This document shows positions 1 to 35,252 of a DNA stretch of 64,000 nt, one piece after another (the stretch's first letter is position 1; each line of letters begins with the position of its first letter). Position numbers and translations under genes: made by a program. Where the stretch lies: assembly GCA_030272585.1 (NCBI GenBank), contig BSYQ01000018.1, positions 1 through 64,000 on the forward strand, given 5' to 3'. The stretch is from Bryopsis sp. KO-2023. Lineage: Eukaryota; Chlorophyta; Ulvophyceae; Bryopsidales; Bryopsidaceae. Below the pieces are notes generated by a model. It made no database searches. It was not told the DNA's origin and saw nothing but the letters and a program-made list of their open reading frames with translations.

Positions 1-3000
1 CCCTGGAGCTCTGAAGGAAGGAAAAAAGGTAAGTGGGGTTGGGTGGGCTGTTGTTTGTTGACTTGTTTTTGTGTGTTTGTGTTTCAGGTTCGAGGAAGGG
101 ACCCCTGGAGCTCTGAAGAAAGAAAAACAAGTAAGTGGGGTTGGGTGGGCTGTTGTTTGTTGACTTGTTTTTGTGTGCTGTGTTTCAGGTTCGAGGAAGG
201 GACCCCTGGAGCTCTGAAGGAAGGAAAAAAGGTAAGTGGGGTTGGGTGGGCTGTTGTTTGTTGACTTGTTTTTGTGTGTTTGTGTTTCAGGTTCGAGGAA
301 GGGACCCCTGGAGCTCTGAAGAAAGAAAAACAAGTAAGTGGGGTTGGGTGGGCTGTTGTTTGTTGACTTGTTTTTGTGTGTTTGTGTTTCAGGTTCGAGG
401 AAGGGACCCCTGGAGCTCTGAAGAAAGAAAAACAAGTAAGTGGGGTTGGGTGGGCTGTTGTTTGTTGACTTGTTTTTGTGTGTTGTGTTTCAGGCTCGAG
501 GAAGGGACCCCTGGAGCTCTGAAGAAAGAAAAACAAGTAAGTGGGGTTGGGTGGGCTGTTGTTTGTTGACTTGTTTTTGTGTGCTGTGTTTCAGGTTCGA
601 GGAAGGGACCCCTGGAGCTCTGAAGGAAGAAAAACAAGTAAGTGGGGTTGGGTGGGCTGTTGTTTGGTGACTTGTTTTTGTGTTTATGTGTTTCAGGCTC
701 GAGGAAGGGACCCCTGGAGCTCTGAAGGAAGAAAAACAAGTAAGTGGGGTTGGGTGGGCTGTTGTTTGTTGACTTGTTTTTGTGTGCTGTGTTTCAGGTT
801 CGAGGAAGGGACCCCTGGAGCTCTGAAGGAAGAAAAACAAGTAAGTGGGGTTGGGTGGGCTGTTGTTTGTTGACTTGTTTTTGTGTGTTGTGTTTCAGGC
901 TCGAGGAAGGGACCCCTGGAGCTCTGAAGGAAGGAAAAAAGGTAAGTGGGGTTGGGTGGGCTGTTGTTTGTTGACTTGTTTTTGTGTGTTTGTGTTTCAG
1001 GTTCGAGGAAGGGACCCCTGGAGCTCTGAAGAAAGAAAAACAAGTAAGTGGGGTTGGGTGGGCTGTTGTTTGTTGACTTGTTTTTGTGTGTTTGTGTTTC
1101 AGGTTCGAGGAAGGGACCCCTGGAGCTCTGAAGAAAGAAAAACAAGTAAGTGGGGTTGGGTGGGCTGTTGTTTGTTGACTTGTTTTTGTGTGTTGTGTTT
1201 CAGGCTCGAGGAAGGGACCCCTGGAGCTCTGAAGGAAGAAAAACAAGTAAGTGGGGTTGGGTGGGCTGTTGTTTGTTGACTTGTTTTTGTGTGCTGTTTT
1301 TCAGGTTCGAGGAAGGGACCCCTGGAGCTCTGAAGGAAGGAAAACAAGTAAGTGGGGTTGGGTGGGCTGTTGTTTGTTGACTTGTTTTTGTGTGTTTGTG
1401 TTTCAGGTTCGAGGAAGGGACCCCTGGAGCTCTGAAGGAAGAAAAACAAGTAAGTGGGGTTGGGTGGGCTGTTGTTTGTTGACTTGTTTTTGTGTGTTGT
1501 GTTTCAGGCTCGAGGAAGGGACCCCTGGAGCTCTGAAGGAAGGAAAAAAGGTAAGTGGGGTTGGGTGGGCTGTTGTTTGTTGACTTGTTTTTGTGTGTTT
1601 GTGTTTCAGGTTCGAGGAAGGGACCCCTGGAGCTCTGAAGAAAGAAAAACAAGTAAGTGGGGTTGGGTGGGCTGTTGTTTGTTGACTTGTTTTTGTGTGT
1701 TTGTGTTTCAGGTTCGAGGAAGGGACCCCTGGAGCTCTGAAGAAAGAAAAACAAGTAAGTGGGGTTGGGTGGGCTGTTGTTTGTTGACTTGTTTTTGTGT
1801 GTTGTGTTTCAGGTTCGAGGAAGGGACCCCTGGAGCTCTGAAGGAAGGAAAACAAGTAAGTGGGGTTGGGTGGGCTGTTGTTTGTTGACTTGTTTTTGTG
1901 TGCTGTTTTTCAGGTTCGAGGAAGGGACCCCTGGAGCTCTGAAGGAAGAAAAACAAGTAAGTGGGGTTGGGTGGGCTGTTGTTTGTTGACGTGTTTTTGT
2001 GTGCTGTTTTTCAGGTTCGAGGAAGGGACCCCTGGAGCTCTGAAGGAAGAAAAACAAGTAAGTGGGGTTGGGTGGGCTGTTGTTTGGTGACTTGTTTTTG
2101 TGTGTTTGTGTTTCAGGTTCGAGGAAGGGACCCCTGGAGCTCTGAAGGAAGGAAAACAAGTAAGTGGGGTTGGGTGGGCTGTTGTTTGTTGACTTGTTTT
2201 TGTGTGTTGTGTTTCAGGTTCGAGGAAGGGACCCCTGGAGCTCTGAAGGAAGGAAAACAAGTAAGTGGGGTTGGGTGGGCTGTTGTTTGTTGACTTGTTT
2301 TTGTGTGTTGTGTTTCAGGTTCGAGGAAGGGACCCCTGGAGCTCTGAAGGAAGGAAAACAAGTAAGTGGGGTTGGGTGGGCTGTTGTTTGTTGACTTGTT
2401 TTTGTGTGTTTGTGTTTCAGGTTCGAGGAAGGGACCCCTGGAGCTCTGAAGGAAGGAAAACAAGTAAGTGGGGTTGGGTGGGCTGTTGTTTGTTGACTTG
2501 TTTTTGTGTGTTTGTGTTTCAGGTTCGAGGAAGGGACCCCTGGAGCTCTGAAGGAAGAAAAACAAGTAAGTGGGGTTGGGTGGGCTGTTGTTTGTTGACT
2601 TGTTTTTGTGTGTTTGTGTTTCAGGTTCGAGGAAGGGACCCCTGGAGCTCTGAAGGAAGAAAAACAAGTAAGTGGGGTTGGGTGGGCTGTTGTTTGTTGA
2701 CTTGTTTTTGTGTGTTTGTGTTTCAGGTTCGAGGAAGGGACCCCTGGAGCTCTGAAGGAAGAAAAACAAGTAAGTGGGGTTGGGTGGGCTGTTGTTTGTT
2801 GACTTGTTTTTGTGTGTTTGTGTTTCAGGTTCGAGGAAGGGACCCCTGGAGCTCTGAAGAAAGAAAAACAAGTAAGTGGGGTTGGGTGGGCTGTTGTTTG
2901 TTGACTTGTTTTTGTGTGTTTGTGTTTCAGGTTCGAGGAAGGGACCCCTGGAGCTCTGAAGGAAGAAAAACAAGTAAGTGGGGTTGGGTGGGCTGTTGTT

Positions 3001-6000
3001 TGTTGACTTGTTTTTGTGTGTTTGTGTTTCAGGTTCGAGGAAGGGACCCCTGGAGCTCTGAAGGAAGGAAAACAAGTAAGTGGGGTTGGGTGGGCTGTTG
3101 TTTGTTGACTTGTTTTTGTGTGTTTGTGTTTCAGGTTCGAGGAAGGGACCCCTGGAGCTCTGAAGGAAGAAAAACAAGTAAGTGGGGTTGGGTGGGCTGT
3201 TGTTTGTTGACTTGTTTTTGTGTGTTTGTGTTTCAGGTTCGAGGAAGGGACCCCTGGAGCTCTGAAGGAAGGAAAAAAGGTAAGTGGGGTTGGGTGGGCT
3301 GTTGTTTGTTGACTTGTTTTTGTGTGCTGTTTTTCAGGTTCGAGGAAGGGACCCCTGGAGCTCTGAAGGAAGAAAAACAAGTAAGTGGGGTTGGGTGGGC
3401 TGTTGTTTGTTGACTTGTTTTTGTGTGCTGTTTTTCAGGTTCGAGGAAGGGACCCCTGGAGCTCTGAAGGAAGAAAAACAAGTAAGTGGGGTTGGGTGGG
3501 CTGTTGTTTGTTGACTTGTTTTTGTGTGTTTGTGTTTCAGGTTCGAGGAAGGGACCCCTGGAGCTCTGAAGAAAGAAAAACAAGTAAGTGGGGTTGGGTG
3601 GGCTGTTGTTTGTTGACTTGTTTTTGTGTGCTGTTTTTCAGGTTCGAGGAAGGGACCCCTGGAGCTCTGAAGGAAGAAAAACAAGTAAGTGGGGTTGGGT
3701 GGGCTGTTGTTTGTTGACTTGTTTTTGTGTGTTGTGTTTCAGGTTCGAGGAAGGGACCCCTGGAGCTCTGAAGGAAGAAAAACAAGTAAGTGGGGTTGGG
3801 TGGGCTGTTGTTTGGTGACTTGTTTTTGTGTGTTGTTTTTCAGGTTCGAGGAAGGGACCCCTGGAGCTCTGAAGGAAGAAAAACAAGTAAGTGGGGTTGG
3901 GTGGGCTGTTGTTTGTTGACTTGTTTTTGTGTGCTGTTTTTCAGGTTCGAGGAAGGGACCCCTGGAGCTCTGAAGGAAGGAAAACAAGTAAGTGGGGTTG
4001 GGTGGGCTGTTGTTTGTTGACTTGTTTTTGTGTGTTGTGTTTCAGGCTCGAGGAAGGGACCCCTGGAGCTCTGAAGGAAGAAAAACAAGTAAGTGGGGTT
4101 GGGTGGGCTGTTGTTTGTTGACTTGTTTTTGTGTGTTGTGTTTCAGGCTCGAGGAAGGGCCCCCTGGAGCTCTGAAGGAAGAAAAACAAGTAAGTGGGGT
4201 TGGGTGGGCTGTTGTTTGTTGACTTGTTTTTGTGTGTTTGTGTTTCAGGTTCGAGGAAGGGACCCCTGAGGCTCTGAAGGAAGAAAAACAAGTAAGTGGG
4301 GTTGGGTGGGCTGTTGTTTGTTGACTTGTTTTTGTGTGTTTGTGTTTCAGGTTCGAGGAAGGGACCCCTGGAGCTCTGAAGGAAGAAAAACAAGTAAGTG
4401 GGGTTGGGTGGGCTGTTGTTTGTTGACTTGTTTTTGTGTGCTGTTTTTCAGGTTCGAGGAAGGGACCCCTGGAGCTCTGAAGGAAGGAAAACAAGTAAGT
4501 GGGGTTGGGTGGGCTGTTGTTTGGTGACTTGTTTTTGTGTGTTGTTTTTCAGGTTCGAGGAAGGGACCCCTGGAGCTCTGAAGGAAGAAAAACAAGTAAG
4601 TGGGGTTGGGTGGGCTGTTGTTTGTTGACTTGTTTTTGTGTGTTTGTGTTTCAGGTTCGAGGAAGGGACCCCTGGAGCTCTGAAGGAAGAAAAACAAGTA
4701 AGTGGGGTTGGGTGGGCTGTTGTTTGTTGACTTGTTTTTGTGTGTTTGTGTTTCAGGTTCGAGGAAGGGACCCCTGGAGCTCTGAAGGAAGGAAAACAAG
4801 TAAGTGGGGTTGGGTGGGCTGTTGTTTGTTGACTTGTTTTTGTGTGTTTGTGTTTCAGGTTCGAAGAAGGGACCCCTGAGGCTCTGAAGGAAGGAAAACA
4901 AGTAAGTGGGGTTGGGTGGGCTGTTGTTTGTTGACTTGTTTTTGTGTGTTTGTGTTTCAGGTTCGAGGAAGGGACCCCTGGAGCTCTGAAGGAAGGAAAA
5001 CAAGTAAGTGGGGTTGGGTGGGCTGTTGTTTGTTGACTTGTTTTTGTGTGTTTGTGTTTCAGGTTCGAGGAAGGGACCCCTGGAGCTCTGAAGGAAGAAA
5101 AACAAGTAAGTGGGGTTGGGTGGGCTGTTGTTTGTTGACTTGTTTTTGTGTGTTTGTGTTTCAGGTTCGAGGAAGGGACCCCTGGAGCTCTGAAGGAAGG
5201 AAAACAAGTAAGTGGGGTTGGGTGGGCTGTTGTTTGTTGACTTGTTTTTGTGTGTTTGTGTTTCAGGTTCGAAGAAGGGACCCCTGAGGCTCTGAAGGAA
5301 GGAAAACAAGTAAGTGGGGTTGGGTGGGCTGTTGTTTGTTGACTTGTTTTTGTGTGTTTGTGTTTCAGGTTCGAGGAAGGGACCCCTGAGGCTCTGAAGG
5401 AAGAAAAACAAGTAAGTGGGGTTGGGTGGGCTGTTGTTTGGTGACTTGTTTTTGTGTGCTGTTTTTCAGGTTCGAGGAAGGGACCCCTGGAGCTCTGAAG
5501 GAAGAAAAACAAGTAAGTGGGGTTGGGTGGGCTGTTGTTTGGTGACTTGTTTTTGTGTGCTGTTTTTCAGGTTCGAGGAAGGGACCCCTGGAGCTCTGAA
5601 GGAAGAAAAACAAGTAAGTGGGGTTGGGTGGGCTGTTGTTTGTTGACTTGTTTTTGTGTGTTTGTGTTTCAGGTTCGAGGAAGGGACCCCTGAGGCTCTG
5701 AAGGAAGAAAAACAAGTAAGTGGGGTTGGGTGGGCTGTTGTTTGGTGACTTGTTTTTGTGTGCTGTTTTTCAGGTTCGAGGAAGGGACCCCTGGAGCTCT
5801 GAAGAAAGAAAAACAAGTAAGTGGGGTTGGGTGGGCTGTTGTTTGTTGACTTGTTTTTGTGTGCTGTTTTTCAGGTTCGAGGAAGGGACCCCTGGAGCTC
5901 TGAAGGAAGGAAAAAAGGTAAGTGGGGTTGGGTGGGCTCCTGTTTGTTGACTTGTTTTTGTGTGCTGTTTTTCAGGTTCGAGGAAGGGACCCCTGGAGCT

Positions 6001-9000
6001 CTGAAGGAAGAAAAACAAGTAAGTGGGGTTGGGTGGGCTGTTGTTTGTTGACTTGTTTTTGTGTGTTGTGTTTCAGGTTCGAGGAAGGGACCCCTGGAGC
6101 TCTGAAGGAAGGAAAACAAGTAAGTGGGGTTGGGTGGGCTGTTGTTTGTTGACTTGTTTTTGTGTGTTTGTGTTTCAGGTTCGAGGAAGGGACCCCTGGA
6201 GCTCTGAAGGAAGGAAAACAAGTAAGTGGGGTTGGGTGGGCTGTTGTTTGTTGACTTGTTTTTGTGTGTTTGTGTTTCAGGTTCGAGGAAGGGACCCCTG
6301 GAGCTCTGAAGGAAGGAAAACAAGTAAGTGGGGTTGGGTGGGCTGTTGTTTGTTGACTTGTTTTTGTGTGTTTGTGTTTCAGGTTCGAGGAAGGGACCCC
6401 TGGAGCTCTGAAGGAAGAAAAACAAGTAAGTGGGGTTGGGTGGGCTGTTGTTTGTTGACTTGTTTTTGTGTGTTTGTGTTTCAGGTTCGAGGAAGGGACC
6501 CCTGGAGCTCTGAAGGAAGAAAAACAAGTAAGTGGGGTTGGGTGGGCTGTTGTTTGTTGACTTGTTTTTGTGTGTTTGTGTTTCAGGTTCGAGGAAGGGA
6601 CCCCTGGAGCTCTGAAGGAAGAAAAACAAGTAAGTGGGGTTGGGTGGGCTGTTGTTTGTTGACTTGTTTTTGTGTGTTTGTGTTTCAGGTTCGAGGAAGG
6701 GACCCCTGGAGCTCTGAAGAAAGAAAAACAAGTAAGTGGGGTTGGGTGGGCTGTTGTTTGTTGACTTGTTTTTGTGTGTTTGTGTTTCAGGTTCGAGGAA
6801 GGGACCCCTGGAGCTCTGAAGGAAGAAAAACAAGTAAGTGGGGTTGGGTGGGCTGTTGTTTGTTGACTTGTTTTTGTGTGTTTGTGTTTCAGGTTCGAGG
6901 AAGGGACCCCTGGAGCTCTGAAGGAAGGAAAACAAGTAAGTGGGGTTGGGTGGGCTGTTGTTTGTTGACTTGTTTTTGTGTGTTTGTGTTTCAGGTTCGA
7001 GGAAGGGACCCCTGGAGCTCTGAAGGAAGAAAAACAAGTAAGTGGGGTTGGGTGGGCTGTTGTTTGTTGACTTGTTTTTGTGTGTTTGTGTTTCAGGTTC
7101 GAGGAAGGGACCCCTGGAGCTCTGAAGGAAGGAAAAAAGGTAAGTGGGGTTGGGTGGGCTGTTGTTTGTTGACTTGTTTTTGTGTGCTGTTTTTCAGGTT
7201 CGAGGAAGGGACCCCTGGAGCTCTGAAGGAAGAAAAACAAGTAAGTGGGGTTGGGTGGGCTGTTGTTTGTTGACTTGTTTTTGTGTGCTGTTTTTCAGGT
7301 TCGAGGAAGGGACCCCTGGAGCTCTGAAGGAAGAAAAACAAGTAAGTGGGGTTGGGTGGGCTGTTGTTTGTTGACTTGTTTTTGTGTGTTTGTGTTTCAG
7401 GTTCGAGGAAGGGACCCCTGGAGCTCTGAAGAAAGAAAAACAAGTAAGTGGGGTTGGGTGGGCTGTTGTTTGTTGACTTGTTTTTGTGTGCTGTTTTTCA
7501 GGTTCGAGGAAGGGACCCCTGGAGCTCTGAAGGAAGAAAAACAAGTAAGTGGGGTTGGGTGGGCTGTTGTTTGTTGACTTGTTTTTGTGTGTTGTGTTTC
7601 AGGTTCGAGGAAGGGACCCCTGGAGCTCTGAAGGAAGAAAAACAAGTAAGTGGGGTTGGGTGGGCTGTTGTTTGGTGACTTGTTTTTGTGTGTTGTTTTT
7701 CAGGTTCGAGGAAGGGACCCCTGGAGCTCTGAAGGAAGAAAAACAAGTAAGTGGGGTTGGGTGGGCTGTTGTTTGTTGACTTGTTTTTGTGTGCTGTTTT
7801 TCAGGTTCGAGGAAGGGACCCCTGGAGCTCTGAAGGAAGGAAAACAAGTAAGTGGGGTTGGGTGGGCTGTTGTTTGTTGACTTGTTTTTGTGTGTTGTGT
7901 TTCAGGCTCGAGGAAGGGACCCCTGGAGCTCTGAAGGAAGAAAAACAAGTAAGTGGGGTTGGGTGGGCTGTTGTTTGTTGACTTGTTTTTGTGTGTTGTG
8001 TTTCAGGCTCGAGGAAGGGCCCCCTGGAGCTCTGAAGGAAGAAAAACAAGTAAGTGGGGTTGGGTGGGCTGTTGTTTGTTGACTTGTTTTTGTGTGTTTG
8101 TGTTTCAGGTTCGAGGAAGGGACCCCTGAGGCTCTGAAGGAAGAAAAACAAGTAAGTGGGGTTGGGTGGGCTGTTGTTTGTTGACTTGTTTTTGTGTGTT
8201 TGTGTTTCAGGTTCGAGGAAGGGACCCCTGGAGCTCTGAAGGAAGAAAAACAAGTAAGTGGGGTTGGGTGGGCTGTTGTTTGGTGACTTGTTTTTGTGTG
8301 TTGTTTTTCAGGTTCGAGGAAGGGACCCCTGGAGCTCTGAAGGAAGAAAAACAAGTAAGTGGGGTTGGGTGGGCTGTTGTTTGTTGACTTGTTTTTGTGT
8401 GCTGTTTTTCAGGTTCGAGGAAGGGACCCCTGGAGCTCTGAAGGAAGGAAAACAAGTAAGTGGGGTTGGGTGGGCTGTTGTTTGGTGACTTGTTTTTGTG
8501 TGTTGTTTTTCAGGTTCGAGGAAGGGACCCCTGGAGCTCTGAAGGAAGAAAAACAAGTAAGTGGGGTTGGGTGGGCTGTTGTTTGTTGACTTGTTTTTGT
8601 GTGTTTGTGTTTCAGGTTCGAGGAAGGGACCCCTGGAGCTCTGAAGGAAGGAAAACAAGTAAGTGGGGTTGGGTGGGCTGTTGTTTGTTGACTTGTTTTT
8701 GTGTGTTTGTGTTTCAGGTTCGAGGAAGGGACCCCTGGAGCTCTGAAGGAAGAAAAACAAGTAAGTGGGGTTGGGTGGGCTGTTGTTTGTTGACTTGTTT
8801 TTGTGTGTTTGTGTTTCAGGTTCGAGGAAGGGACCCCTGGAGCTCTGAAGGAAGGAAAACAAGTAAGTGGGGTTGGGTGGGCTGTTGTTTGTTGACTTGT
8901 TTTTGTGTGTTTGTGTTTCAGGTTCGAAGAAGGGACCCCTGAGGCTCTGAAGGAAGGAAAACAAGTAAGTGGGGTTGGGTGGGCTGTTGTTTGTTGACTT

Positions 9001-12000
9001 GTTTTTGTGTGTTTGTGTTTCAGGTTCGAGGAAGGGACCCCTGAGGCTCTGAAGGAAGAAAAACAAGTAAGTGGGGTTGGGTGGGCTGTTGTTTGGTGAC
9101 TTGTTTTTGTGTGCTGTTTTTCAGGTTCGAGGAAGGGACCCCTGGAGCTCTGAAGGAAGAAAAACAAGTAAGTGGGGTTGGGTGGGCTGTTGTTTGGTGA
9201 CTTGTTTTTGTGTGCTGTTTTTCAGGTTCGAGGAAGGGACCCCTGGAGCTCTGAAGGAAGAAAAACAAGTAAGTGGGGTTGGGTGGGCTGTTGTTTGTTG
9301 ACTTGTTTTTGTGTGTTTGTGTTTCAGGTTCGAGGAAGGGACCCCTGAGGCTCTGAAGGAAGAAAAACAAGTAAGTGGGGTTGGGTGGGCTGTTGTTTGG
9401 TGACTTGTTTTTGTGTGCTGTTTTTCAGGTTCGAGGAAGGGACCCCTGGAGCTCTGAAGAAAGAAAAACAAGTAAGTGGGGTTGGGTGGGCTGTTGTTTG
9501 TTGACTTGTTTTTGTGTGCTGTTTTTCAGGTTCGAGGAAGGGACCCCTGGAGCTCTGAAGGAAGGAAAAAAGGTAAGTGGGGTTGGGTGGGCTCCTGTTT
9601 GTTGACTTGTTTTTGTGTGCTGTTTTTCAGGTTCGAGGAAGGGACCCCTGGAGCTCTGAAGGAAGAAAAACAAGTAAGTGGGGTTGGGTGGGCTGTTGTT
9701 TGTTGACTTGTTTTTGTGTGTTTGTGTTTCAGGTTCGAAGAAGGGACCCCTGAGGCTCTGAAGGAAGGAAAACAAGTAAGTGGGGTTGGGTGGGCTGTTG
9801 TTTGTTGACTTGTTTTTGTGTGTTTGTGTTTCAGGTTCGAGGAAGGGACCCCTGAGGCTCTGAAGGAAGAAAAACAAGTAAGTGGGGTTGGGTGGGCTGT
9901 TGTTTGGTGACTTGTTTTTGTGTGCTGTTTTTCAGGTTCGAGGAAGGGACCCCTGGAGCTCTGAAGGAAGAAAAACAAGTAAGTGGGGTTGGGTGGGCTG
10001 TTGTTTGTTGACTTGTTTTTGTGTGTTTGTGTTTCAGGTTCGAGGAAGGGACCCCTGAGGCTCTGAAGGAAGAAAAACAAGTAAGTGGGGTTGGGTGGGC
10101 TGTTGTTTGGTGACTTGTTTTTGTGTGCTGTTTTTCAGGTTCGAGGAAGGGACCCCTGGAGCTCTGAAGAAAGAAAAACAAGTAAGTGGGGTTGGGTGGG
10201 CTGTTGTTTGTTGACTTGTTTTTGTGTGCTGTTTTTCAGGTTCGAGGAAGGGACCCCTGGAGCTCTGAAGGAAGAAAAACAAGTAAGTGGGGTTGGGTGG
10301 GCTGTTGTTTGTTGACTTGTTTTTGTGTGCTGTTTTTCAGGTTCGAGGAAGGGACCCCTGGAGCTCTGAAGGAAGGAAAACAAGTAAGTGGGGTTGGGTG
10401 GGCTGTTGTTTGTTGACTTGTTTTTGTGTGTTTGTGTTTCAGGTTCGAGGAAGGGACCCCTGGAGCTCTGAAGGAAGAAAAACAAGTAAGTGGGGTTGGG
10501 TGGGCTGTTGTTTGTTGACTTGTTTTTGTGTGCTGTTTTTCAGGTTCGAGGAAGGGACCCCTGGAGCTCTGAAGGAAGGAAAACAAGTAAGTGGGGTTGG
10601 GTGGGCTGTTGTTTGGTGACTTGTTTTTGTGTGTTGTTTTTCAGGTTCGAGGAAGGGACCCCTGGAGCTCTGAAGGAAGAAAAACAAGTAAGTGGGGTTG
10701 GGTGGGCTGTTGTTTGTTGACTTGTTTTTGTGTGTTTGTGTTTCAGGTTCGAGGAAGGGACCCCTGGAGCTCTGAAGGAAGGAAAACAAGTAAGTGGGGT
10801 TGGGTGGGCTGTTGTTTGTTGACTTGTTTTTGTGTGTTTGTGTTTCAGGTTCGAGGAAGGGACCCCTGGAGCTCTGAAGGAAGAAAAACAAGTAAGTGGG
10901 GTTGGGTGGGCTGTTGTTTGTTGACTTGTTTTTGTGTGTTTGTGTTTCAGGTTCGAGGAAGGGACCCCTGGAGCTCTGAAGGAAGGAAAACAAGTAAGTG
11001 GGGTTGGGTGGGCTGTTGTTTGTTGACTTGTTTTTGTGTGTTTGTGTTTCAGGTTCGAAGAAGGGACCCCTGAGGCTCTGAAGGAAGGAAAACAAGTAAG
11101 TGGGGTTGGGTGGGCTGTTGTTTGTTGACTTGTTTTTGTGTGTTTGTGTTTCAGGTTCGAGGAAGGGACCCCTGAGGCTCTGAAGGAAGAAAAACAAGTA
11201 AGTGGGGTTGGGTGGGCTGTTGTTTGGTGACTTGTTTTTGTGTGCTGTTTTTCAGGTTCGAGGAAGGGACCCCTGGAGCTCTGAAGGAAGAAAAACAAGT
11301 AAGTGGGGTTGGGTGGGCTGTTGTTTGGTGACTTGTTTTTGTGTGCTGTTTTTCAGGTTCGAGGAAGGGACCCCTGGAGCTCTGAAGGAAGAAAAACAAG
11401 TAAGTGGGGTTGGGTGGGCTGTTGTTTGTTGACTTGTTTTTGTGTGTTTGTGTTTCAGGTTCGAGGAAGGGACCCCTGAGGCTCTGAAGGAAGAAAAACA
11501 AGTAAGTGGGGTTGGGTGGGCTGTTGTTTGGTGACTTGTTTTTGTGTGCTGTTTTTCAGGTTCGAGGAAGGGACCCCTGGAGCTCTGAAGAAAGAAAAAC
11601 AAGTAAGTGGGGTTGGGTGGGCTGTTGTTTGTTGACTTGTTTTTGTGTGCTGTTTTTCAGGTTCGAGGAAGGGACCCCTGGAGCTCTGAAGGAAGGAAAA
11701 AAGGTAAGTGGGGTTGGGTGGGCTCCTGTTTGTTGACTTGTTTTTGTGTGCTGTTTTTCAGGTTCGAGGAAGGGACCCCTGGAGCTCTGAAGGAAGAAAA
11801 ACAAGTAAGTGGGGTTGGGTGGGCTGTTGTTTGTTGACTTGTTTTTGTGTGTTTGTGTTTCAGGTTCGAAGAAGGGACCCCTGAGGCTCTGAAGGAAGGA
11901 AAACAAGTAAGTGGGGTTGGGTGGGCTGTTGTTTGTTGACTTGTTTTTGTGTGTTTGTGTTTCAGGTTCGAGGAAGGGACCCCTGAGGCTCTGAAGGAAG

Positions 12001-21171: not shown

Positions 21172-22114
21172 CTAGTTGGCAGTAGTCCCTTACTGCCCCA
21201 AAAGATTATAATAACAACCTTTGCCCCTTTTTGGATGTCAACTTTTTTTTTTTTTTTTTTAACTTCTCTGCCACAGAAACTGGGTTTCGAAAGGGGTTAT
21301 GTTATATAAGGAAGTCAAAGCAGTTCTGCAAAAACACTGTATTCAGGAAATTGTCCTAATGCAACAGAAACCCAAAATACCCTGAAAAATCAATTGGTAA
21401 CACCCTTGCTGGAAAATTACAACCTGAAGTGTTTGTTTCTGCCACCATCTTGCACTACCCAGGAAATCCAGAAAAACTACCTTATAAAAAGTTCAAAGCA
21501 ACAAGAAAATCATAGTCAGTTTAATTCTGCCTTCCCTAGAAGATTTTCCTACAGCCCACAAGGTCAGCTGAGACACCAAAACTTCTTGGCAAACAAAAAC
21601 CCCCTTTTCCTGCAGAATACCTGAGTCACCTGATTACCCAATCCATTGCAACTCTGTATAATAAAAACCCATTTGACTGGACTTCCCTCAAAGGTCACCA
21701 TGCAATTCTTTACTCTCCCTTTGGCTAATTCAGTAACTCTTATTTCAGATTGCAAATATGGAATTCTCTAGCAATAACATCTTACCCCTGCTGGACTTGC
21801 AATGTATCAACAGGTGAACCATTTTCATAACCAAAACAGGTTGCAAACTTCAGAGTTTTCATCTCAACCTGATCAGAAACTGCAAAAAGGATCCTTGTCC
21901 ACCTCCAACACACTGATCACCAGAAACTGAACAGCCCTAAGGGTTTAACCCTGCCTGAAAAATTCCACTTCCAACACACTGATCACCAGAAACTGGACAG
22001 CCCTTGAAAAATTCCACTTCCAACACACTGATCACCAACTCTTTCACTGCACCCCCTGAGCAAACCAGATTCAATCATCCACTCCCATGGTCACACCTCC
22101 TGTCGATTCCTGCC
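21172..22114 (-). other. 3' untranslated region of the Ty3 element, with short repeats
   Basis: About 940 bases lie between the third ORF and the polypurine tract with no coding signal. The stretch includes a run of about 21 T at 21,242-21,262. At about 21,900-22,040 there are three copies of a 30-40-bp phrase beginning TTCCACTTCCAACACACTG. Confidence 0.7.
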
Positions 22115-22981: not shown

Positions 22982-23171
22982 GTTGATTCCTTTTTTCTTT
23001 TTTTTTTCCTTTCCGAACGATAGGCTCCTCTTTCTCTCTTCTTGCTCTGCGCACGTAACTTGCTAGACAGTTTCCAACTCCAGTATACTGCACACCTATT
23101 TCCGTTTCTGTCAGAGGTTGCTTCAGTCTGTCACAGACATCAACCTGTCACCTCTGCTTGATCTAGTCCTT

Positions 23172-26100: not shown

Positions 26101-26461
26101 GTACTTTCCAAACCATTTATTGAACATCCATTATTTACTTCCCGTAAATTCAATAGGTACATCGGCAGGCCCTTGCGAGCTGCCCGAGCTACCTCATGTG
26201 CAGACATGAGGTCCAAATCTGCTGTACTGCAATCTTCCAATCTGCCTGTTTGCATTCTAAGTTTAACGACTCTACCCTGAGGCCCCTGCAAAGCCACTAT
26301 CTTTTCCTGCCAATCTATGGTGGGGTTATGTTTGATCAACCAAGACATACCCAGCACCAGGTCATATCTGCCCAGTGTTACTGCATACATCTTTTCTTCA
26401 GACACAAACCTCCCCATCTTGACACTGGCCTGCAGTTCTTTTTCTACCTTTTCCGAAGTCC
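23172..26461 (-). CDS. Ty3 pol, downstream part: RT, RNase H, integrase, chromodomain
   Basis: Numbered from the open-frame start at 26,474, the end of the retropepsin domain lies at residues 5-60. Reverse transcriptase is at about 170-400, with the catalytic YLDD at 336-339. RNase H is at about 470-600 (TDAS, then later DHAPLKFL). The integrase zinc finger HACHESALAGH...CIPC lies before the catalytic core, where the DFVGP and SDRDSRF aspartates and the ETDGQTERANR glutamate are intact. The C-terminal 60 residues (EEYLVDRILADR, YLVRWQGY, DTWEP) form a chromodomain. No stop or frameshift is visible after the insertion point. The frame is cut off from its upstream half by the nested element at 26,467-27,005, so it can be translated only if that element is absent or bypassed. 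Confidence 0.95.
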
Positions 26462-26466
26462 TGCCA
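26462..26466. repeat. Target-site duplication of the nested element, left copy (TGCCA)
   Basis: TGCCA occurs on both sides of the 539-bp insertion (26,462-26,466 and 27,006-27,010). Taking out the insertion and one copy makes the two halves of pol contiguous and in frame, which fixes the breakpoints. Confidence 0.9.
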
Positions 26467-26537
26467 TGATACACGATACGGGACGTTGGTGGACCGGCCC
26501 GCCCCCTTTGCGGGCTGTGCCGCTTTATCCCGTATCA
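26467..26537 (-). repeat. 71-bp LTR of the TRIM-like element, 3' copy
   Basis: It appears identical to 26,935-27,005. The ends form an inverted repeat (plus strand GATACGGGA and TCCCGTATC), so each LTR could fold on itself. Confidence 0.88.
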
Positions 26538-26552
26538 TCTCGTCCCCCCCCC
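26538..26552 (-). other. Polypurine tract of the TRIM-like element
   Basis: The minus strand reads GGGGGGGGGACGAGA, ending exactly at the LTR. Confidence 0.75.
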
Positions 26553-26920
26553 GGGCCAGTGGTCGCCCTCGACCACCTTCTCCTCGTGCCCGTTACTCCA
26601 TTCTCCTTGACCCTCTCTGCGATTACCGGGTTACCGTTCTCTCGCGGGTCTATTCGGGGGTTCTCCAGGATCTTTCTTGTGATCCTCTGATCCTTTGTTC
26701 TTATCCCTTTGATCCGTCTAGTCTCTTGAGCTTATGGTCTTTTGCCTTGCTCTGCGGCGGCGATCACTGTGATGATCTCAGCCCCCTCCCCTCCTTCGCA
26801 GTGATCCTCATGCTCTTTCACCTCTCGTTACTACCACTCTCGGGTCAGAGGTGCCAACTCACTCTCAACTTCCATGGCCTCGCTAGGACTCGAACTCGTG
26901 ACCTTCGGATCGCAAGTTCG

Positions 26921-26932
26921 GCTCCGAAACCA
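26921..26932 (-). other. Primer-binding site of the TRIM-like element
   Basis: TGGTTTCGGAGC on the minus strand starts two bases inside the 5' LTR. It would pair with a tRNA 3' end GCTCCGAAACCA. The same 12-mer is at 29,780-29,791. Confidence 0.75.
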
Positions 26933-26934
26933 AA

Positions 26935-27005
26935 TGATACACGATACGGGACGTTGGTGGACCGGCCCGCCCCCTTTGCGGGCTGTGCCGCTTTATCCCG
27001 TATCA
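26935..27005 (-). repeat. 71-bp LTR of the TRIM-like element, 5' copy
   Basis: This is the right-hand copy; the TGCCA duplication follows at 27,006-27,010. Confidence 0.88.
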
Positions 27006-27010
27006 TGCCA

Positions 27011-27879
27011 TCTGCCAACTGAACTTCAGAAACTGCCTCAGAGTGTTGTGTCTGTATGCTGTTTTCCTGCAACCAATCTTTCGAAACAAAATTGTCGGTT
27101 GCACCACTATCTATCAAAATTCTAGCAAAACAATCTGCCACAAACCCTGTGGTCTTCAACATTCCCTGAGTCCCCCCATGGACTCCTCTCAACTTCAAAA
27201 GTGGGGGTTCATCCAAGCTATATCCTTTAAAGCAAACTTCATTAGGTCTGCCCAGCCCAAATTCCTCTCTCACTGAAAACAGGTCTGCGGTGTCTGCCCT
27301 CAGATCACCAGCAGCACCAACATGCACTGAAAAATCATGCAGGTCAGGTGTGGCCCCGCCTGGCCCTGCACCTACTGCCTCTGAGAATTGAGTAGTTGTG
27401 GCTACCGTAGGCACATCAACCCCCTCAATCTCACTCCATGACCCTGCAGGTGTCAGTGCCTCCTGCACTACACCTTCAGAATCCTTCTCTGAAACATCTG
27501 CAGATGCTGCGACTCCGCGCCCAGCATCTACCATTGCACTCTTCAAACAAACTGCAAGCCTCCCCAACTTTGGCAGACCACTTGCAGTACTGCTCACCTT
27601 CTCCCTAAGGCCTCCAGAATTCCCTGCACCGGTGTCCCTGCCTGGACCACCACCTGCAGAAATTCCATCCATGAATCTTACACACTTCTCCTCGGTTACG
27701 GCTACACACGGCTCATCAACCTTAGAATGGACTCCACGCCCATAGGCTACCCTCCCCTGAGGTAACACCTTGTGTGGGTGGCTACGCCGACCTTCCCACA
27801 CTCCACTTCTGTCCTCCTGCTTCTCTTCTCCACGGCTGGCAGTCTCTCCAGACTCCAGCCTGCTCAGTTTTCCTGACAA
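27011..27879 (-). CDS. Ty3 pol, upstream part: linker and retropepsin active site
   Basis: The open frame begins at the gag-pol overlap and runs to the nested element. The first 200 codons are a low-complexity Gly/Ser/Ala-rich linker. The C-terminal part holds the aspartic protease core FARILIDSGATDNFV (catalytic DSGAT). The frame reaches a VQLADG motif exactly at the insertion, and the same domain resumes at 26,461 on the other side. The frame is -1 relative to gag, with a slippery GGAAAAC at 27,867-27,873. A homologous but decayed stretch (FSVHV...LRADT) is found at 51,130-51,230. Confidence 0.88.
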
Positions 27880-29033
27880 TCAACAGCAAAATGGCCCAAC
27901 TTGTCGCAGTTGTAGCACCGCACATTTGCTGCAGCGCGACCTGCGTCCATTCTGCTTCTGCCTGCTGACGAACTTTCTCCAGACTTTCGCCTCTGTCTGC
28001 GAGGACTGCCACTGCGTCCCCTGCTCTTGCTGCGACTTGCGTCACGGCGTTTGCCGTCGTCAAAACCCACACGGTTTCGCTGGAGGCCATCAACCTCCAT
28101 GCGGTCACCTGATTGGGGAATATAACGCGGTGTCTGCCGATCGTCAAATCTGCCACGGTTGAAACTCTGAGACCTGCCTCTGCTCTGCGAGCGTCCTCTG
28201 CTCTGTGAGCGTCCTCTGCTCTGGGATCGTCCCCTGCTTTGGGACCTGTCCCTGCGTGAACTTTCACGCCTGCCTCTGGGACTGCGGCCTCTGCGTCCTT
28301 CTCTGCGGTATATCTCTAGAGGTCCTTCCCATGTAGCGGCAAGTGCTATTGCACGCTCCAAATCTGCAGGATCTTCCATTTCAACCTTAGTGCGCAAACG
28401 ATCATTCAGACCTTCTATGAAACGAAACAGCTGCTCCCCAGCATTGCTGTCGTTGATCTGCAACATGAGCCTGCGAAAATCGTGCACATATTCTGCGACA
28501 GACATTCGACCCTGCTTCAGGCGTGACCATTCACGTCTGAAGTCCTTGTTCTCGTTGGTCTTGCCGAACTGCCGTCTGAGATCTGCGACTAGTGCGGTCA
28601 GATCTGTAGGCAAAGCCCTCTGGCCTGCCATTGCCTCTTCGTAACGACTTCTCCACCATGTTCCTGCAGCACCTCTTAAACAGCCTGCAGCCACCAAAAC
28701 CTGCTGTTCCCTGTCTCTGGTTGCAGTCAGATCATAATATGTCTGCAACTGAACCTGCCACTCGTTCAGAGGAACATCCTGTGGATCACCATACCAGGAG
28801 TCAGGGCCTTTTGCCCTTGCTTTACCCAGAGCTGCCGGCGGATGCTGCTCGGCCAACCTAGTCCGTACTGCGTGCCGGACTGCATCGTCCATCTGCGCGT
28901 TGACATTAGCGGCGACCTGCCTCAGGTGCAGGATCTCTTCCTGCATCTCTGCCATGCCCCGCCTCAGACCCTGAAGATCGAACGGATCTGGGGCTGGCGT
29001 TCCCATCTGCGGGTGCTCGTCTGTGCCTGACAT
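27864..29033 (-). CDS. Ty3 gag: capsid-like protein with SR-type repeats and CCHC zinc knuckle
   Basis: A 389-residue product results if translation starts at the ATG at 29,033 (MSGTDEHP). The open frame extends further up to 29,132. The middle part (WYGDPQDVPLNEWQ, TWWRSRYEE, RRQFG, MSVAEYVHDFRRL) is a typical retrotransposon Gag capsid domain. Then comes an Arg/Ser-rich region with five RSQSRG-type repeats. Near the C-terminus is the zinc knuckle CYNCDKLGHFAVDC, of C-x2-C-x4-H-x4-C spacing, which binds RNA. The stop TGA lies right after the frameshift heptamer, so Gag is the main product and Gag-Pol the minor one. Confidence 0.9.
   Translation of the reverse strand: MSGTDEHPQMGTPAPDPFDLQGLRRGMAEMQEEILHLRQVAANVNAQMDDAVRHAVRTRLAEQHPPAALGKARAKGPDSWYGDPQDVPLNEWQVQLQTYYDLTATRDREQQVLVAAGCLRGAAGTWWRSRYEEAMAGQRALPTDLTALVADLRRQFGKTNENKDFRREWSRLKQGRMSVAEYVHDFRRLMLQINDSNAGEQLFRFIEGLNDRLRTKVEMEDPADLERAIALAATWEGPLEIYRREGRRGRSPRGRRESSRRDRSQSRGRSQSRGRSQSRGRSQSRGRSQSFNRGRFDDRQTPRYIPQSGDRMEVDGLQRNRVGFDDGKRRDASRSKSRGRSGSPRRQRRKSGESSSAGRSRMDAGRAAANVRCYNCDKLGHFAVDCQEN
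27867..27873 (-). promoter_or_regulatory. Probable -1 ribosomal frameshift heptamer GGAAAAC
   Basis: In gag frame the minus strand reads CAG GAA AAC TGA. Slipping back one base on G GAA AAC enters the pol frame as GGA AAA CTG. The heptamer sits directly before the gag stop. A downstream pseudoknot was not tested. Confidence 0.65.
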
Positions 29034-29379
29034 TCCTCCTGTTCCGCTCACGCCTTTCCTGCGTTGCCCTCTGCGATCTGTAGATCGGACACTGAGGGTC
29101 AGAACAGTCGTAGTATCTGATAATATTACCACTGCGTTCTGCCTTCCTGTGGCCGTGAGGAGGCGCTCTGAGAGGAGGTGGAGGTACCACTGCCAATGGG
29201 TGTCTCACCGGACCCAAAACCTGCACTGGTCTGGGTAACCTGAAAGGGGCTGAAACCCAGTCCCCTGAGAAAGTAAACAGATCAGGTGGCAGCCCTGCCT
29301 CACACTGGATAACAGTCTCTACGTCTGATTCTGCTTCACTTCCACTACTCTCCACTGTCACAGGTTTCCCAAAACTCAT
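28906..29379 (-). CDS. Upstream ORF overlapping gag, function unknown
   Basis: About 157 codons start at an ATG (MSFGKPVTVESS) in a different frame from gag and overlap its start. The part before the overlap has protein-like composition: an acidic start, a Pro-rich middle, then a Cys pair (YYDCSDPQCPIY) and a basic stretch. No domain is recognised. It could be a leader of Gag joined by a +1 shift, a separate small protein, or chance. Confidence 0.35.
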   Translation of the reverse strand: MSFGKPVTVESSGSEAESDVETVIQCEAGLPPDLFTFSGDWVSAPFRLPRPVQVLGPVRHPLAVVPPPPLRAPPHGHRKAERSGNIIRYYDCSDPQCPIYRSQRATQERRERNRRNVRHRRAPADGNASPRSVRSSGSEAGHGRDAGRDPAPEAGRR

Positions 29380-29778
29380 GCAGCACACTTCTGCAGAAAG
29401 CCACTACAACACCGGCTAATTCCGACTAACCAAGAAGCCTTGCGCAAAACCTGCGTCTTCTAGATCTGCGCCGCCGCGCCTACTCTGATTAACCTAGAAA
29501 ACTTGCGCAAACCTGCGTCTTCTAGACCCTGCGCCGCTGCGCCTACTCAAACCTGCACTCAGGCAGTACTGCGATTTCGACCTTTTAGAAAGCTGCGCCT
29601 GCCTGCGCCAAACCTTTCTGGGATCTCTCTGAAAGCTGCGCCTATCTGCGCTGAACCTTTCTGCGACCTCTCCTTTGAAAGCTGCGCCTGCCTGCGCTAC
29701 CTTTCACCAGAACTTCGTTCTCCCCTTTGCTTCCTCCTGAAGCCTTTCAGGAACGCTGCGATCTTGTCGCCAGCCCTG
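29380..29778 (-). other. Ty3 5' leader
   Basis: About 400 bases lie between the primer-binding site and the first ORF. The leader is built of short degenerate CTGCGCC-type repeats. No ORF or domain is seen in it. Confidence 0.6.
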
Positions 29779-29791
29779 AGCTCCGAAACCA
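29779..29791 (-). other. Primer-binding site of the Ty3 element
   Basis: The minus strand reads TGGTTTCGGAGCT starting one base inside the 5' LTR. The first 12 bases equal the site of the nested TRIM-like element. Confidence 0.8.
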
Positions 29792-29792
29792 A

Positions 29793-30254
29793 TGTAAAGA
29801 CTGCACTGCGACTGCGACTCTGAAGCAGTCTGCCAGCCTGAAACAACAGCCTAGAAGGCTGCAACAAGTTCTGACACGAGAGAGCGGGAGAGAGAGAGTG
29901 TTCAACCCCAAAATCGAGTTACAAGAATACCCTGAGGTGCTGCCCAAATACCCTAGGCTGCACCTCTGATCCAAACTGATCGTTCAAGGTCCTATCCATC
30001 AACATGACCTGACAGTCTGCCTCAGTGTCAGGTCCCCTGTCTGAAACCTTCTGAGCTGCCAGCCCTGCAGAAAAGCGTCTGCTGAGCTGTCAGCCCCCAT
30101 TCACAGATCTAAGGGTTCCGCCCTGCTGCAGCAAACCGGCTGCAGCATTGCTGGTTCCCTAGAACTGCAGGCCTGTCAGTTCCCCTGAACTGCAGGTCTG
30201 CCAGTTCTCTGAACTGAGGATCTGACAGTTCCCCTGAACTGTAGAATCCTTACA
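29793..30254 (-). repeat. Ty3 LTR, 5' copy in element orientation (462 bp)
   Basis: It matches 20,699-21,160 without a difference that I could find. It is followed by the AATTG duplication at 30,255-30,259. The promoter and start of transcription of the element are expected here. Confidence 0.96.
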
Positions 30255-30259
30255 AATTG

Positions 30260-31077
30260 CCAAAACCGAGGAGCTGCAGTCGTTCCTTCGGCTATGTTGA
30301 TTGGGATGACACTGTGGGAAGCTGGACATCTTTTTAGGGAAATTGGGAACACCCCATGCAGCCTGGTCATTGTGCAAAAGAGTGATATGGGTGTGTCTTG
30401 TTGTGCCAGAATGATCTGTGGGATTTTAAACCCTTGCACGTCAAATTTCCCTCCAAAAGTTTTCGTGAACACCACAACGAAGGTTTCTGCAAAGAAAAAA
30501 AATGGGAGGTGTTTTTTTTCTCCCTAATCTTCGCAATAATATTTTCATGTAATTGTAAAGATTTATTATTATTTCGATCCTGTTGTTTTGTTTGGGTCAA
30601 TTCTGGATCAAAAAGAAGAAAAAGAAAGGCTGTTTACAGTAACTTTGTCTGACACATCACAACGACTGAAACAGTAATCTCACTCTTTCTCACACTCTTT
30701 TGTTCCTCTCTGTCTGACTCTCTGATTTCCGAGAAAATTTGGGGAAAGGGGGGTTTCGACTAATAACCTTGTCCCCGACTTTTTAGCACCGTTAATCTTT
30801 CCGCCTCCGTTTAAAATTCACGCTGGTATCTTGCTGCCACATCCCACATGGTCACTCTTTTTTCCGTCATCCCTTTTCTGGCACTGACTCATCCAGAAAC
30901 ACAACCGTCTGTCCCACCGTTTCACGGCAAGGGAATTCGTTTACGTCAACGACCGCGTCAGCCGTCGACCGGTTACCACAAGGCTCGAGTTTGAGGAGCA
31001 CACAAAAAGAAAGGTCCTCGTGAAAACTCCGATCGTCGCTCCGCATTTCGTTTCTGCATGTACGAAGGATGGACCTC
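30260..31077. other. Spacer before array 2 with no gene recognised
   Basis: This is AT-rich non-repetitive sequence with only short frames. The last 20-30 bases are a diverged exon block of the satellite (ATGGACCTCTGGAGGAAAG), the edge of array 2. Confidence 0.6.
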
Positions 31078-34000
31078 TGGAGGAAAGAAAACAAGTGGGT
31101 GGGCTGTTGTTTGTTGACTTGTTTTTGTGTGTTTGTGTTTCAGGTTCGAGGAAGGGACCCCTGGAGCTCTGAAGGAAGAAAAACAAGTAAGTGGGGTTGG
31201 GTGGGCTGTTGTTTGTTGACTTGTTTTTGTGTTTTTGTGTTTCAGGTTCGAGGAAGGGACCCCTGGAGCTTTGAAGGAAGGAGAACAAGTAAGTGGGGTT
31301 GGGTGGGCTGTTGTTTGTTGACTTGTTTTTGTGTGTTGTGTTTCAGGTTCGAGGAAGGGACCCCTGGAGCTTTGAAGGAAGGAGAACAAGTAAGTGGGGT
31401 TGGGTGGGCTGTTGTTTGTTGACTTGTTTTTGTGTGCTGTTTTTCAGGTTCGAGGAAGGGACCCCTGGAGCTCTGAAGGAAGAAAAACAAGTAAGTGGGG
31501 TTGGGTGGGCTGTTGTTTGTTGACTTGTTTTTGTGTTTTTGTGTTTCAGGTTCGAGGAAGGGACCCCTGGAGCTCTGAAGGAAGAAAAACAAGTAAGTGG
31601 GGTTGGGTGGGCTGTTGTTTGTTGACTTGTTTTTGTGTTTTTGTGTTTCAGGTTCGAGGAAGGGACCCCTGGAGCTCTGAAGGAAGAAAAACAAGTAAGT
31701 GGGGTTGGGTGGGCTGTTGTTTGTTGACTTGTTTTTGTGTTTTTGTGTTTCAGGTTCGAGGAAGGGACCCCTGGAGCTTTGAAGGAAGGAGAACAAGTAA
31801 GTGGGGTTGGGTGGGCTGTTGTTTGTTGACTTGTTTTTGTGTGCTGTTTTTCAGGTTCGAGGAAGGGACCCCTGGAGCTCTGAAGGAAGAAAAACAAGTA
31901 AGTGGGGTTGGGTGGGCTGTTGTTTGTTGACTTGTTTTTGTGTTTTTGTGTTTCAGGTTCGAGGAAGGGACCCCTGGAGCTCTGAAGGAAGAAAAACAAG
32001 TAAGTGGGGTTGGGTGGGCTGTTGTTTGTTGACTTGTTTTTGTGTTTTTGTGTTTCAGGTTCGAGGAAGGGACCCCTGGAGCTCTGAAGGAAGAAAAACA
32101 AGTAAGTGGGGTTGGGTGGGCTGTTGTTTGTTGACTTGTTTTTGTGTGCTGTTTTTCAGGTTCGAGGAAGGGACCCCTGGAGCTCTGAAGGAAGAAAAAC
32201 AAGTAAGTGGGGTTGGGTGGGCTGTTGTTTGTTGACTTGTTTTTGTGTTTTTGTGTTTCAGGTTCGAGGAAGGGACCCCTGGAGCTCTGAAGGAAGAAAA
32301 ACAAGTAAGTGGGGTTGGGTGGGCTGTTGTTTGTTGACTTGTTTTTGTGTGCTGTTTTTCAGGTTCGAGGAAGGGACCCCTGGAGCTCTGAAGGAAGAAA
32401 AACAAGTAAGTGGGGTTGGGTGGGCTGTTGTTTGTTGACTTGTTTTTGTGTGCTGTTTTTCAGGTTCGAGGAAGGGACCCCTGGAGCTCTGAAGGAAGAA
32501 AAACAAGTAAGTGGGGTTGGGTGGGCTGTTGTTTGTTGACTTGTTTTTGTGTTTTTGTGTTTCAGGTTCGAGGAAGGGACCCCTGGAGCTCTGAAGGAAG
32601 AAAAACAAGTAAGTGGGGTTGGGTGGGCTGTTGTTTGTTGACTTGTTTTTGTGTTTTTGTGTTTCAGGTTCGAGGAAGGGACCCCTGGAGCTCTGAAGGA
32701 AGAAAAACAAGTAAGTGGGGTTGGGTGGGCTGTTGTTTGTTGACTTGTTTTTGTGTTTTTGTGTTTCAGGTTCGAGGAAGGGACCCCTGGAGCTCTGAAG
32801 GAAGAAAAACAAGTAAGTGGGGTTGGGTGGGCTGTTGTTTGTTGACTTGTTTTTGTGTGCTGTTTTTCAGGTTCGAGGAAGGGACCCCTGGAGCTCTGAA
32901 GGAAGAAAAACAAGTAAGTGGGGTTGGGTGGGCTGTTGTTTGTTGACTTGTTTTTGTGTTTTTGTGTTTCAGGTTCGAGGAAGGGACCCCTGGAGCTTTG
33001 AAGGAAGGAGAACAAGTAAGTGGGGTTGGGTGGGCTGTTGTTTGTTGACTTGTTTTTGTGTGTTGTGTTTCAGGTTCGAGGAAGGGACCCCTGGAGCTCT
33101 GAAGGAAGAAAAACAAGTAAGTGGGGTTGGGTGGGCTGTTGTTTGTTGACTTGTTTTTGTGTTTTTGTGTTTCAGGTTCGAGGAAGGGACCCCTGGAGCT
33201 TTGAAGGAAGGAGAACAAGTAAGTGGGGTTGGGTGGGCTGTTGTTTGTTGACTTGTTTTTGTGTGTTGTGTTTCAGGTTCGAGGAAGGGACCCCTGGAGC
33301 TCTGAAGGAAGAAAAACAAGTAAGTGGGGTTGGGTGGGCTGTTGTTTGTTGACTTGTTTTTGTGTTTTTGTGTTTCAGGTTCGAGGAAGGGACCCCTGGA
33401 GCTTTGAAGGAAGGAGAACAAGTAAGTGGGGTTGGGTGGGCTGTTGTTTGTTGACTTGTTTTTGTGTGTTGTGTTTCAGGTTCGAGGAAGGGACCCCTGG
33501 AGCTTTGAAGGAAGGAGAACAAGTAAGTGGGGTTGGGTGGGCTGTTGTTTGTTGACTTGTTTTTGTGTGTTGTGTTTCAGGTTCGAGGAAGGGACCCCTG
33601 GAGCTCTGAAGGAAGAAAAACAAGTAAGTGGGGTTGGGTGGGCTGTTGTTTGTTGACTTGTTTTTGTGTTTTTGTGTTTCAGGTTCGAGGAAGGGACCCC
33701 TGGAGCTTTGAAGGAAGGAGAACAAGTAAGTGGGGTTGGGTGGGCTGTTGTTTGTTGACTTGTTTTTGTGTGTTGTGTTTCAGGTTCGAGGAAGGGACCC
33801 CTGGAGCTCTGAAGGAAGAAAAACAAGTAAGTGGGGTTGGGTGGGCTGTTGTTTGTTGACTTGTTTTTGTGTTTTTGTGTTTCAGGTTCGAGGAAGGGAC
33901 CCCTGGAGCTCTGAAGGAAGGAGAACAAGTAAGTGGGGTTGGGTGGGCTGTTGTTTGTTGACTTGTTTTTGTGTTTTTGTGTTTCAGGTTCGAGGAAGGG

Positions 34001-35252
34001 ACCCCTGGAGCTCTGAAGGAAGGAGAACAAGTAAGTGGGGTTGGGTGGGCTGTTGTTTGTTGACTTGTTTTTGTGTGTTTGTGTTTCAGGTTCGAGGAAG
34101 GGACCCCTGGAGCTCTGAAGGAAGGAGAACAAGTAAGTGGGGTTGGGTGGGCTGTTATTTGTTGACTTGTTTTTGTGTGCTGTTTTTCAGGTTCGAGGAA
34201 GGGACCCCTGGAGCTCTGAAGGAAGGAAAACAAGTAAGTGGGGTTGGGTGGGCTGTTGTTTGTTGACTTGTTTTTGTGTGCTGTTTTTCAGGTTCGAGGA
34301 AGGGACCCCTGGAGCTCTGAAGGAAGGAGAACAAGTAAGTGGGGTTGGGTGGGCTGTTGTTTGTTGACTTGTTTTTGTGTGTTTGTGTTTCAGGTTCGAG
34401 GAAGGGACCCCTGGAGCTCTGAAGGAAGGAGAACAAGTAAGTGGGGTTGGGTGGGCTGTTGTTTGTTGACTTGTTTTTGTGTGTTTGTGTTTCAGGTTCG
34501 AGGAAGGGACCCCTGGAGCTCTGAAGGAAGGAGAACAAGTAAGTGGGGTTGGGTGGGCTGTTGTTTGTTGACTTGTTTTTGTGTGTTGTGTTTCAGGTTC
34601 GAGGAAGGGACCCCTGGAGCTCTGAAGGAAGAAAAACAAGTAAGTGGGGTTGGGTGGGCTGTTGTTTGTTGACTTGTTTTTGTGTGTTTGTGTTTCAGGT
34701 TCGAGGAAGGGACCCCTGGAGCTCTGAAGGAAGGAGAACAAGTAAGTGGGGTTGGGTGGGCTGTTGTTTGTTGACTTGTTTTTGTGTGTTTGTGTTTCAG
34801 GTTCGAGGAAGGGACCCCTGGAGCTCTGAAGGAAGGAGAACAAGTAAGTGGGGTTGGGTGGGCTGTTATTTGTTGACTTGTTTTTGTGTTTTTGTGTTTC
34901 AGGTTCGAGGAAGGGACCCCTGGAGCTCTGAAGGAAGGAAAACAAGTAAGTGGGGTTGGGTGGGCTGTTGTTTGTTGACTTGTTTTTGTGTGCTGTTTTT
35001 CAGGTTCGAGGAAGGGACCCCTGGAGCTCTGAAGGAAGAAAAACAAGTAAGTGGGGTTGGGTGGGCTGTTGTTTGTTGACTTGTTTTTGTGTGCTGTTTT
35101 TCAGGTTCGAGGAAGGGACCCCTGGAGCTCTGAAGGAAGAAAAACAAGTAAGTGGGGTTGGGTGGGCTGTTGTTTGTTGACTTGTTTTTGTGTGCTGTTT
35201 TTCAGGTTCGAGGAAGGGACCCCTGGAGCTCTGAAGGAAGGAAAACAAGTTA
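31078..35252 (+). repeat. Satellite array 2: about 41 units of the same exon-intron repeat
   Basis: Orientation and unit are the same as in array 1, with splice-like GTAAGT and TTTCAG in nearly every unit. Variants differ. The T/G tract GTGTTTTTGTGTTTCAG and the exon forms GAGCTTTGAAGG and GAAGGAGAACAAG are common here and not seen in array 1. The array 1 forms TGAGGCTCTG and GGTGACTTG are absent here. The last unit has lost its donor (AAGTTAGTGG). Array 2 has therefore been homogenised separately. Confidence 0.96.

Follow-up and report, generated by a model that had tools for sequence, protein, structure and literature searches.

The window analysed here comprises bases 1-64000 of contig C18 (142,728 bases) of Bryopsis sp. 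KO-2023, a green alga of the Bryopsidales whose assembly spans 91 Mb in 28 contigs. Its left part holds two plus-strand arrays of a short tandem repeat, listed with their surroundings in the table below. A single satellite had originally been described over 1..35252; the repeat does occupy both ends of that stretch (1-19475 and 31070-35256), but positions 19476-31069 are not array and consist of a spacer with an LTR retrotransposon inside. Because the two LTRs of this Ty3-type element are identical, its insertion was recent, and the element is a later guest in the spacer and not a component of the arrays. Array 1 starts at the end of the contig, and its own 5′ flank therefore lies outside C18. 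Unit matches number 192 in array 1 and 42 in array 2, with mean identities of 97.4% and 97.2%, respectively; the first unit of array 2 lacks about 12 nt behind the donor and the last is cut within its intron.

Table. Features of the array region of the window (positions in the window).
Feature	Position	Strand	Remarks
Array 1	1..19475	+	190 complete units, 43-nt exon + 58/59-nt intron
Array 1, gene-like 3′ flank	19476..19768	+	boundaries by eye, from likeness to C13 genes
Gly-rich exon in array 1 3′ flank	to 19565	+	by eye
Putative intron in array 1 3′ flank	19566-19673	+	by eye
Last exon in array 1 3′ flank	stop at 19766-19768	+	GCWWWC; by eye
2.0-kb spacer remainder, first part	19769..20698	+	ends in 5-bp duplication AATTG
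Ty3-type LTR retrotransposon	20699..30254	-	9.6 kb; identical 462-bp LTRs; 5-bp AATTG target duplication
Spacer remainder and variable part of array 2 5′ flank	30255..30874	+	
Conserved 5′ block	30875..31074	+	putative promoter and/or first exon
Putative exon 1 end	31075..31094	+	first donor CAA/GTGGGT at 31095
Array 2	31070..35256	+	40 complete units

The units of both arrays share one layout. The original prediction had counted about 230 units, each with CAA or AAG ahead of GTAAGT, and this is borne out: among the 230 complete units (190 + 40), GTAAGT is present in every one, preceded by CAA in 218 and by AAG in 12, the exon is 43 nt long in 230/230, and the predicted acceptor signal, read as TCAG, closes the intron in 230/230. 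The branch-like TTGAC, which had been ascribed to the repeat throughout, is found in 185 units and is GTGAC in the remaining 45, the shorter TGAC being common to all 230; its predicted distance from the acceptor agrees with the consensus, in which 26 nt separate the branch A from the end of the intron. Variation in length is confined to the intron, as had been proposed (58 or 59 nt, 230/230), with its place in the T/G tract assigned by eye. The G-triplets described just inside the donor are also present, with four GGG starts in the unit intron, whereas the 29 native introns average 0.28.

This native set (n = 29) was obtained by threading deposited proteins on the genome. It contains 28 introns of BSKO_14120, some of which at the 5′ end may be mispredicted and none of which was removed, and one of BSKO_12339, the match (99%) of an mTERF ORF on C12. 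Using matrices made from the 29 annotated introns, which score donor and acceptor only and require no branch site, we found that the best pair in the unit is the intron originally proposed (donor behind position 43, length 59), with a score of 20.0. This score is higher than that of 25 of the 29 native pairs; it was reached in 18 dinucleotide and 4 mononucleotide shuffles, out of 3000 each, and the best pair on the minus strand scored 11.7. At the level of sequence, the reading of every unit as a complete exon-intron module is well supported. The likeness of one unit to another is not independent evidence, because the units are homogenised copies, and the unit parser is biased towards finding donors, because it takes the best GTAAGT match near the exon end. 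The native introns are all at least 83 nt long (n = 29) and rarely have G-runs near the donor; the array introns are shorter (54-60 nt).

A search of the genome recovered 17 arrays, a lower bound, with three on C18, one on C17 and 13 on C12. We parsed 728 full units from 16 of the 17, excluding C12:1747k, which has two introns and gave no full unit. Across these 728 units the exon measures 42-44 nt and the intron 54-60 nt, mostly 58-60 nt. The arrays combine the long head-to-tail runs of near-identical units of satellite DNA, in many arrays on three contigs, with the property that defines an intron-containing repeat, a full intron with donor and acceptor per unit (GT in 725/728, the three others being GC, and AG in 723/728). 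Their sizes form a series, from 2 introns at C12:1747k and 6 introns at 1667k through 7 units at 793k, 14 at 748k and 73 at 795-803k to 190 in the window. Older arrays mostly carry GTGAGT and GTGAC instead of GTAAGT and TTGAC. Six inter-array spacers are 2.0 kb each and nearly identical. C12, C17 and C18 each begin within an array, and the strands fit the order reversed C12 - C18 - C17, which suggests that the three contigs belong to one chromosome of about 4.1 Mb.

The same 5′ flank precedes 16 of the 17 arrays, the exception being array 1 of the window, at the contig end. Across nine divergent loci, the 200-nt block at 30875-31074 is 91-98% identical, compared with 66-89% for the sequence above it and 81-92% for the first units. 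Frame-shifting indels in this block argue against coding, and its fold showed no excess structure (z 1.58). Gene conversion could be an alternative keeper of its likeness between loci. At C6:289-305k, the spacer and a copy of the 5′ flank occur without an array. A match to the 5′ flank on C5 was rejected as an array locus, since it forms part of an inverted pair on either side of a different gene.

Loci on C13, C12:847k, C9 and C6 show block-by-block matches to the 3′ flank of the young arrays. At C13:1252k the matching blocks correspond, by eye, to two exons of a small gene, the Gly-rich one and the last; the first exon of this gene reads like a signal peptide and the last ends in GCWWCRK, where the window copy has GCWWWC. 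Between the 5′ part of the array family and the 5′ part of the C13 genes there was no match at the threshold used, so the seeding gene would have been a diverged relative or a fusion and not the C13 gene itself. The 3′ flanks of 1667k and C12:1747k are 91% identical. The original prediction had called for a genic relative of the unit, and the search turned up a family of relatives in the homologues of the 3′ flank, together with the shared flanks and the size series. Small genes whose products read as secreted peptides rich in Gly, in some cases with GCWWCRK at the end, were seen at C13:1252k, C13:1233k, C13:2555k and C6:6040k, and are multi-copy on C13.

A second array lies at C12:840k and consists of seven parsed 76/77-nt units, each with a 36/37-nt exon and a 40-nt intron, with GTGAGT or GTAAGT and with TGTAG. 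Upstream of it is an exon with the same intron, and downstream an eighth copy of the repeat exon with a different intron. The locus belongs to a paralogous gene pair, C12:839501-842300 (840k) and C12:846801-848900 (847k), the members of which are 79% alike over the first 937 aligned positions. At the position of the 840k array, 847k has three diverged modules, each with GTGAGT and with donors and acceptors kept; by eye, the 40-nt intron of 840k corresponds to a 68-nt intron of 847k that has lost internal sequence but retained both ends. The presence of a homogeneous 840k array beside the 847k modules indicates that related exons were amplified at least twice. Single copies outside arrays, for which a search had been proposed, were also found, and their number is a lower bound: one on C6 (C6:6039k), a single unit in length with both of its splice sites, at a distance of about 1.1 kb from an ORF that resembles a Gly-rich secreted peptide, and two on C2, which reproduce the related 847k exon with parts of the adjoining introns and are alike in their surroundings over most of the stretch compared.

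The genome thus holds units with the anatomy of a module, flanks common to the arrays, a graded series of array sizes and a second, independent amplification. Our preferred reading, held with moderate confidence, is that the arrays are an intragenic tandem repeat enlarged to satellite scale, one that would be transcribed, spliced and tolerated. The source would be a small Bryopsis gene family with 3′ exons related to those of the Gly-rich, GCWWC-ended peptide genes. One short exon together with its short intron may have been duplicated head to tail inside such a gene, and unequal exchange or slippage would then have expanded and homogenised the copies, raising their number from a few to at least 190. 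Since the duplicated segment is the whole module, each new unit would bring its own donor, branch site and acceptor. With plus-strand transcription from the conserved 5′ block, which we infer, growth would add only spliceable modules and would be tolerable, and this tolerance may be the reason why the arrays grew. The idea that the repeat traces back to the duplication of one exon-intron of a gene, raised in the original prediction, is probably correct in view of the conserved flanks, the series from 2 introns to 190 units, the genic relatives and the independent C12:840k array, and a gene's exon-intron was most likely amplified at least twice. We propose only tentatively that the arrays are transcribed and efficiently spliced, which would make them genes with nearly 200 or more near-identical introns, in which a satellite is nearly invisible to its own gene, and that this arose more than once in Bryopsis.

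The strongest alternative is a satellite that is silent: it would derive from a gene fragment, with inherited splice signals that homogenisation alone has kept, and would be untranscribed, its signals being idle now. The 97% likeness of the window units is in line with this, as are the array introns being shorter than native ones and the many further columns of the unit that are invariant besides the splice-critical ones. It is also compatible with the tests for selection at the eight splice-critical columns, in which the P values range from 0.032 to 0.90 and those for events and rare variants are all at least 0.09. For substitutions fewer than expected, P was 0.057 in 629 young units, 0.19 in 99 old units and 0.032 in all 728; for events the corresponding values were 0.11, 0.36 and 0.09, and for rare variants 0.89, 0.61 and 0.90. 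Unchanged splice sites between diverged lineages are unsurprising (P 0.075-0.72 per pair), because the intron interior is too alike. However, the 5′ block is better kept than the arrays and than the sequence above the block, the module has been retained in two independent arrays, and GTGAGT is kept in each of the three diverged modules of 847k. We consider a silent satellite rather unlikely.

It is improbable that the arrays act as a functional spliced non-coding RNA or decoy, binding splicing factors or yielding a concatemer RNA with a role of its own. The G-runs behind the donor, the strong splice sites and the large copy number would fit such a role, but the window arrays gave no Rfam match at the gathering threshold, the 5′ block is without excess structure, and the number of units differs between loci, from 2 introns to 190 units. 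The G-runs alone do not demonstrate a sink for splicing factors. Nor was a snoRNA found in each intron, as in a snoRNA host gene; the only Rfam match in the window is a tRNA outside the arrays.

We consider it very improbable that the repeats are introner-type mobile introns or tandem spliced-leader RNA genes. A link to introners had been suggested, and the isolated copies on C6 and C2 with both splice sites could be read in this way; however, the exon is part of the copied segment, the copies stand in tandem within one group of contigs, and the searches gave no more than three isolated copies, rather than copies of an intron in many genes genome-wide, these searches giving lower bounds. Spliced-leader genes have a short exon before GT and form tandem arrays, a layout that the unit resembles, and spliced-leader RNA has an Sm site (A-T5-G type) and needs no acceptor. 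The array units, in contrast, have an AG acceptor in 723/728 and, judged by eye against the consensus, no A-T5-G Sm-type site, and the window arrays are without an Rfam match.

Spliced in silico, the window arrays have no open frame longer than 42 aa, and coding on the plus strand was rejected on the basis of exon lengths of 42-44 nt, which shift the frame, and of stops in the window arrays. The spliced array at C12:795-803k, in contrast, is open for 1044 aa in one frame. Since 475 of 2000 permutations of its exon order were as open, this shows no selection on the frame, and a reading frame kept through the repeated exons was not found. The usual exon of this array has no stop in any frame, which is also true of 8.8% of 43-nt shuffles of the old exon. 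Open frames on the minus strand (1484 aa on C12) were rejected as coding, since they follow from a unit of 102 nt, or 34 codons, together with one stop-free frame, and a spliced ORF at C12:1747k that runs into the 3′ flank was set aside, the same frame being absent from 1667k. A composite of spliced and unspliced translations matched no protein at E ≤ 1, the candidates being proteins of about 128-406 aa, and no exon-exon junction of a retrocopy was found in the genome within 3 mismatches. The mature exons are most likely non-coding, as leader or lncRNA exons, at least in the young arrays. A long, charged repeat protein encoded by the spliced exons, which the frame at 795-803k might suggest, is scarcely credible given the short frames of the window arrays, the shifting exon lengths, the permutations and the protein search.

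It is known that a gene can gain a few introns from an intron-containing repeat; in Bryopsis, the same process has apparently run at satellite scale, and at least twice. Four published cases allow a comparison. In Cryptococcus, one gene acquired two introns when a repeat that contains an intron expanded, and the repeat was likewise multiplied within the gene, by slippage, unequal crossing over or conversion, to yield near-identical introns; that case concerns two introns of one gene, whereas Bryopsis has up to 190 parsed units per array, 17 arrays and a second independent array (PMC2395259). The spider MaSp2 silk genes also have near-identical small introns that alternate with similar exons, are homogenised within the gene and originated independently more than once, but their exons are expressed and encode silk, whereas the Bryopsis exon of 42-44 nt shifts the frame and is apparently non-coding in the window arrays (PMC9779670). 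SNHG14, with its SNORD115/116 clusters, resembles the arrangement proposed here as one transcript of tandem subunits of non-coding exon and intron; its introns carry snoRNAs, whereas the Bryopsis intron is too short for one and no Rfam family matched the window arrays (PMC7917289). In a potato RdRp gene, duplication over an intron-exon boundary produced a new intron with inherited signals, as a single event with a donor recruited from exonic sequence, in contrast to the copying of whole modules with both sites in Bryopsis (PMC4974935). The Bryopsis case is set apart by its scale, its apparently non-coding exons and its second array, and we found no earlier report of such an exon-intron satellite in the open-licence literature.

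The splice signals are intact in nearly every Bryopsis unit, and intermediate stages are still present in the genome. If the arrays are transcribed and spliced, exon-intron modules can become satellites within active genes. Bryopsis would then provide a natural system for massive local intron gain, in which the pairing of sites by the spliceosome could be tested among hundreds of identical choices, and a way to ask whether splicing permits the growth of satellites inside genes.

Several other features were recorded along the way. BSKO_14120 is an alpha-2-macroglobulin-like gene on the minus strand of the window (36559-50532); its deposited model contains 28 introns, and its end is EGF-like. 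Among the matches listed, its relatives include eight further BSKO entries on C12 and other contigs, plus BSKO_09657. A tRNA-Arg (TCT) at 50990-51065, minus strand, is the sole Rfam or ARAGORN match in the window and lies outside the arrays. Retroelement ORFs at 54036-57901, also on the minus strand, have a weak match to a phage-integrase-type domain (E 0.0005, below the Pfam cut-off) and are probably DIRS-type; similar ORFs occur at C6:305k, directly behind the copy of the 5′ flank that has no array. A further tandem repeat, A/C-rich and with a period of 49/103 nt, is located at 61042-61683. Finally, a 41-nt match to the 3′ flank of 1667k led us to a tandem repeat with a spacing of about 194 nt at C16:1092099-1161037.
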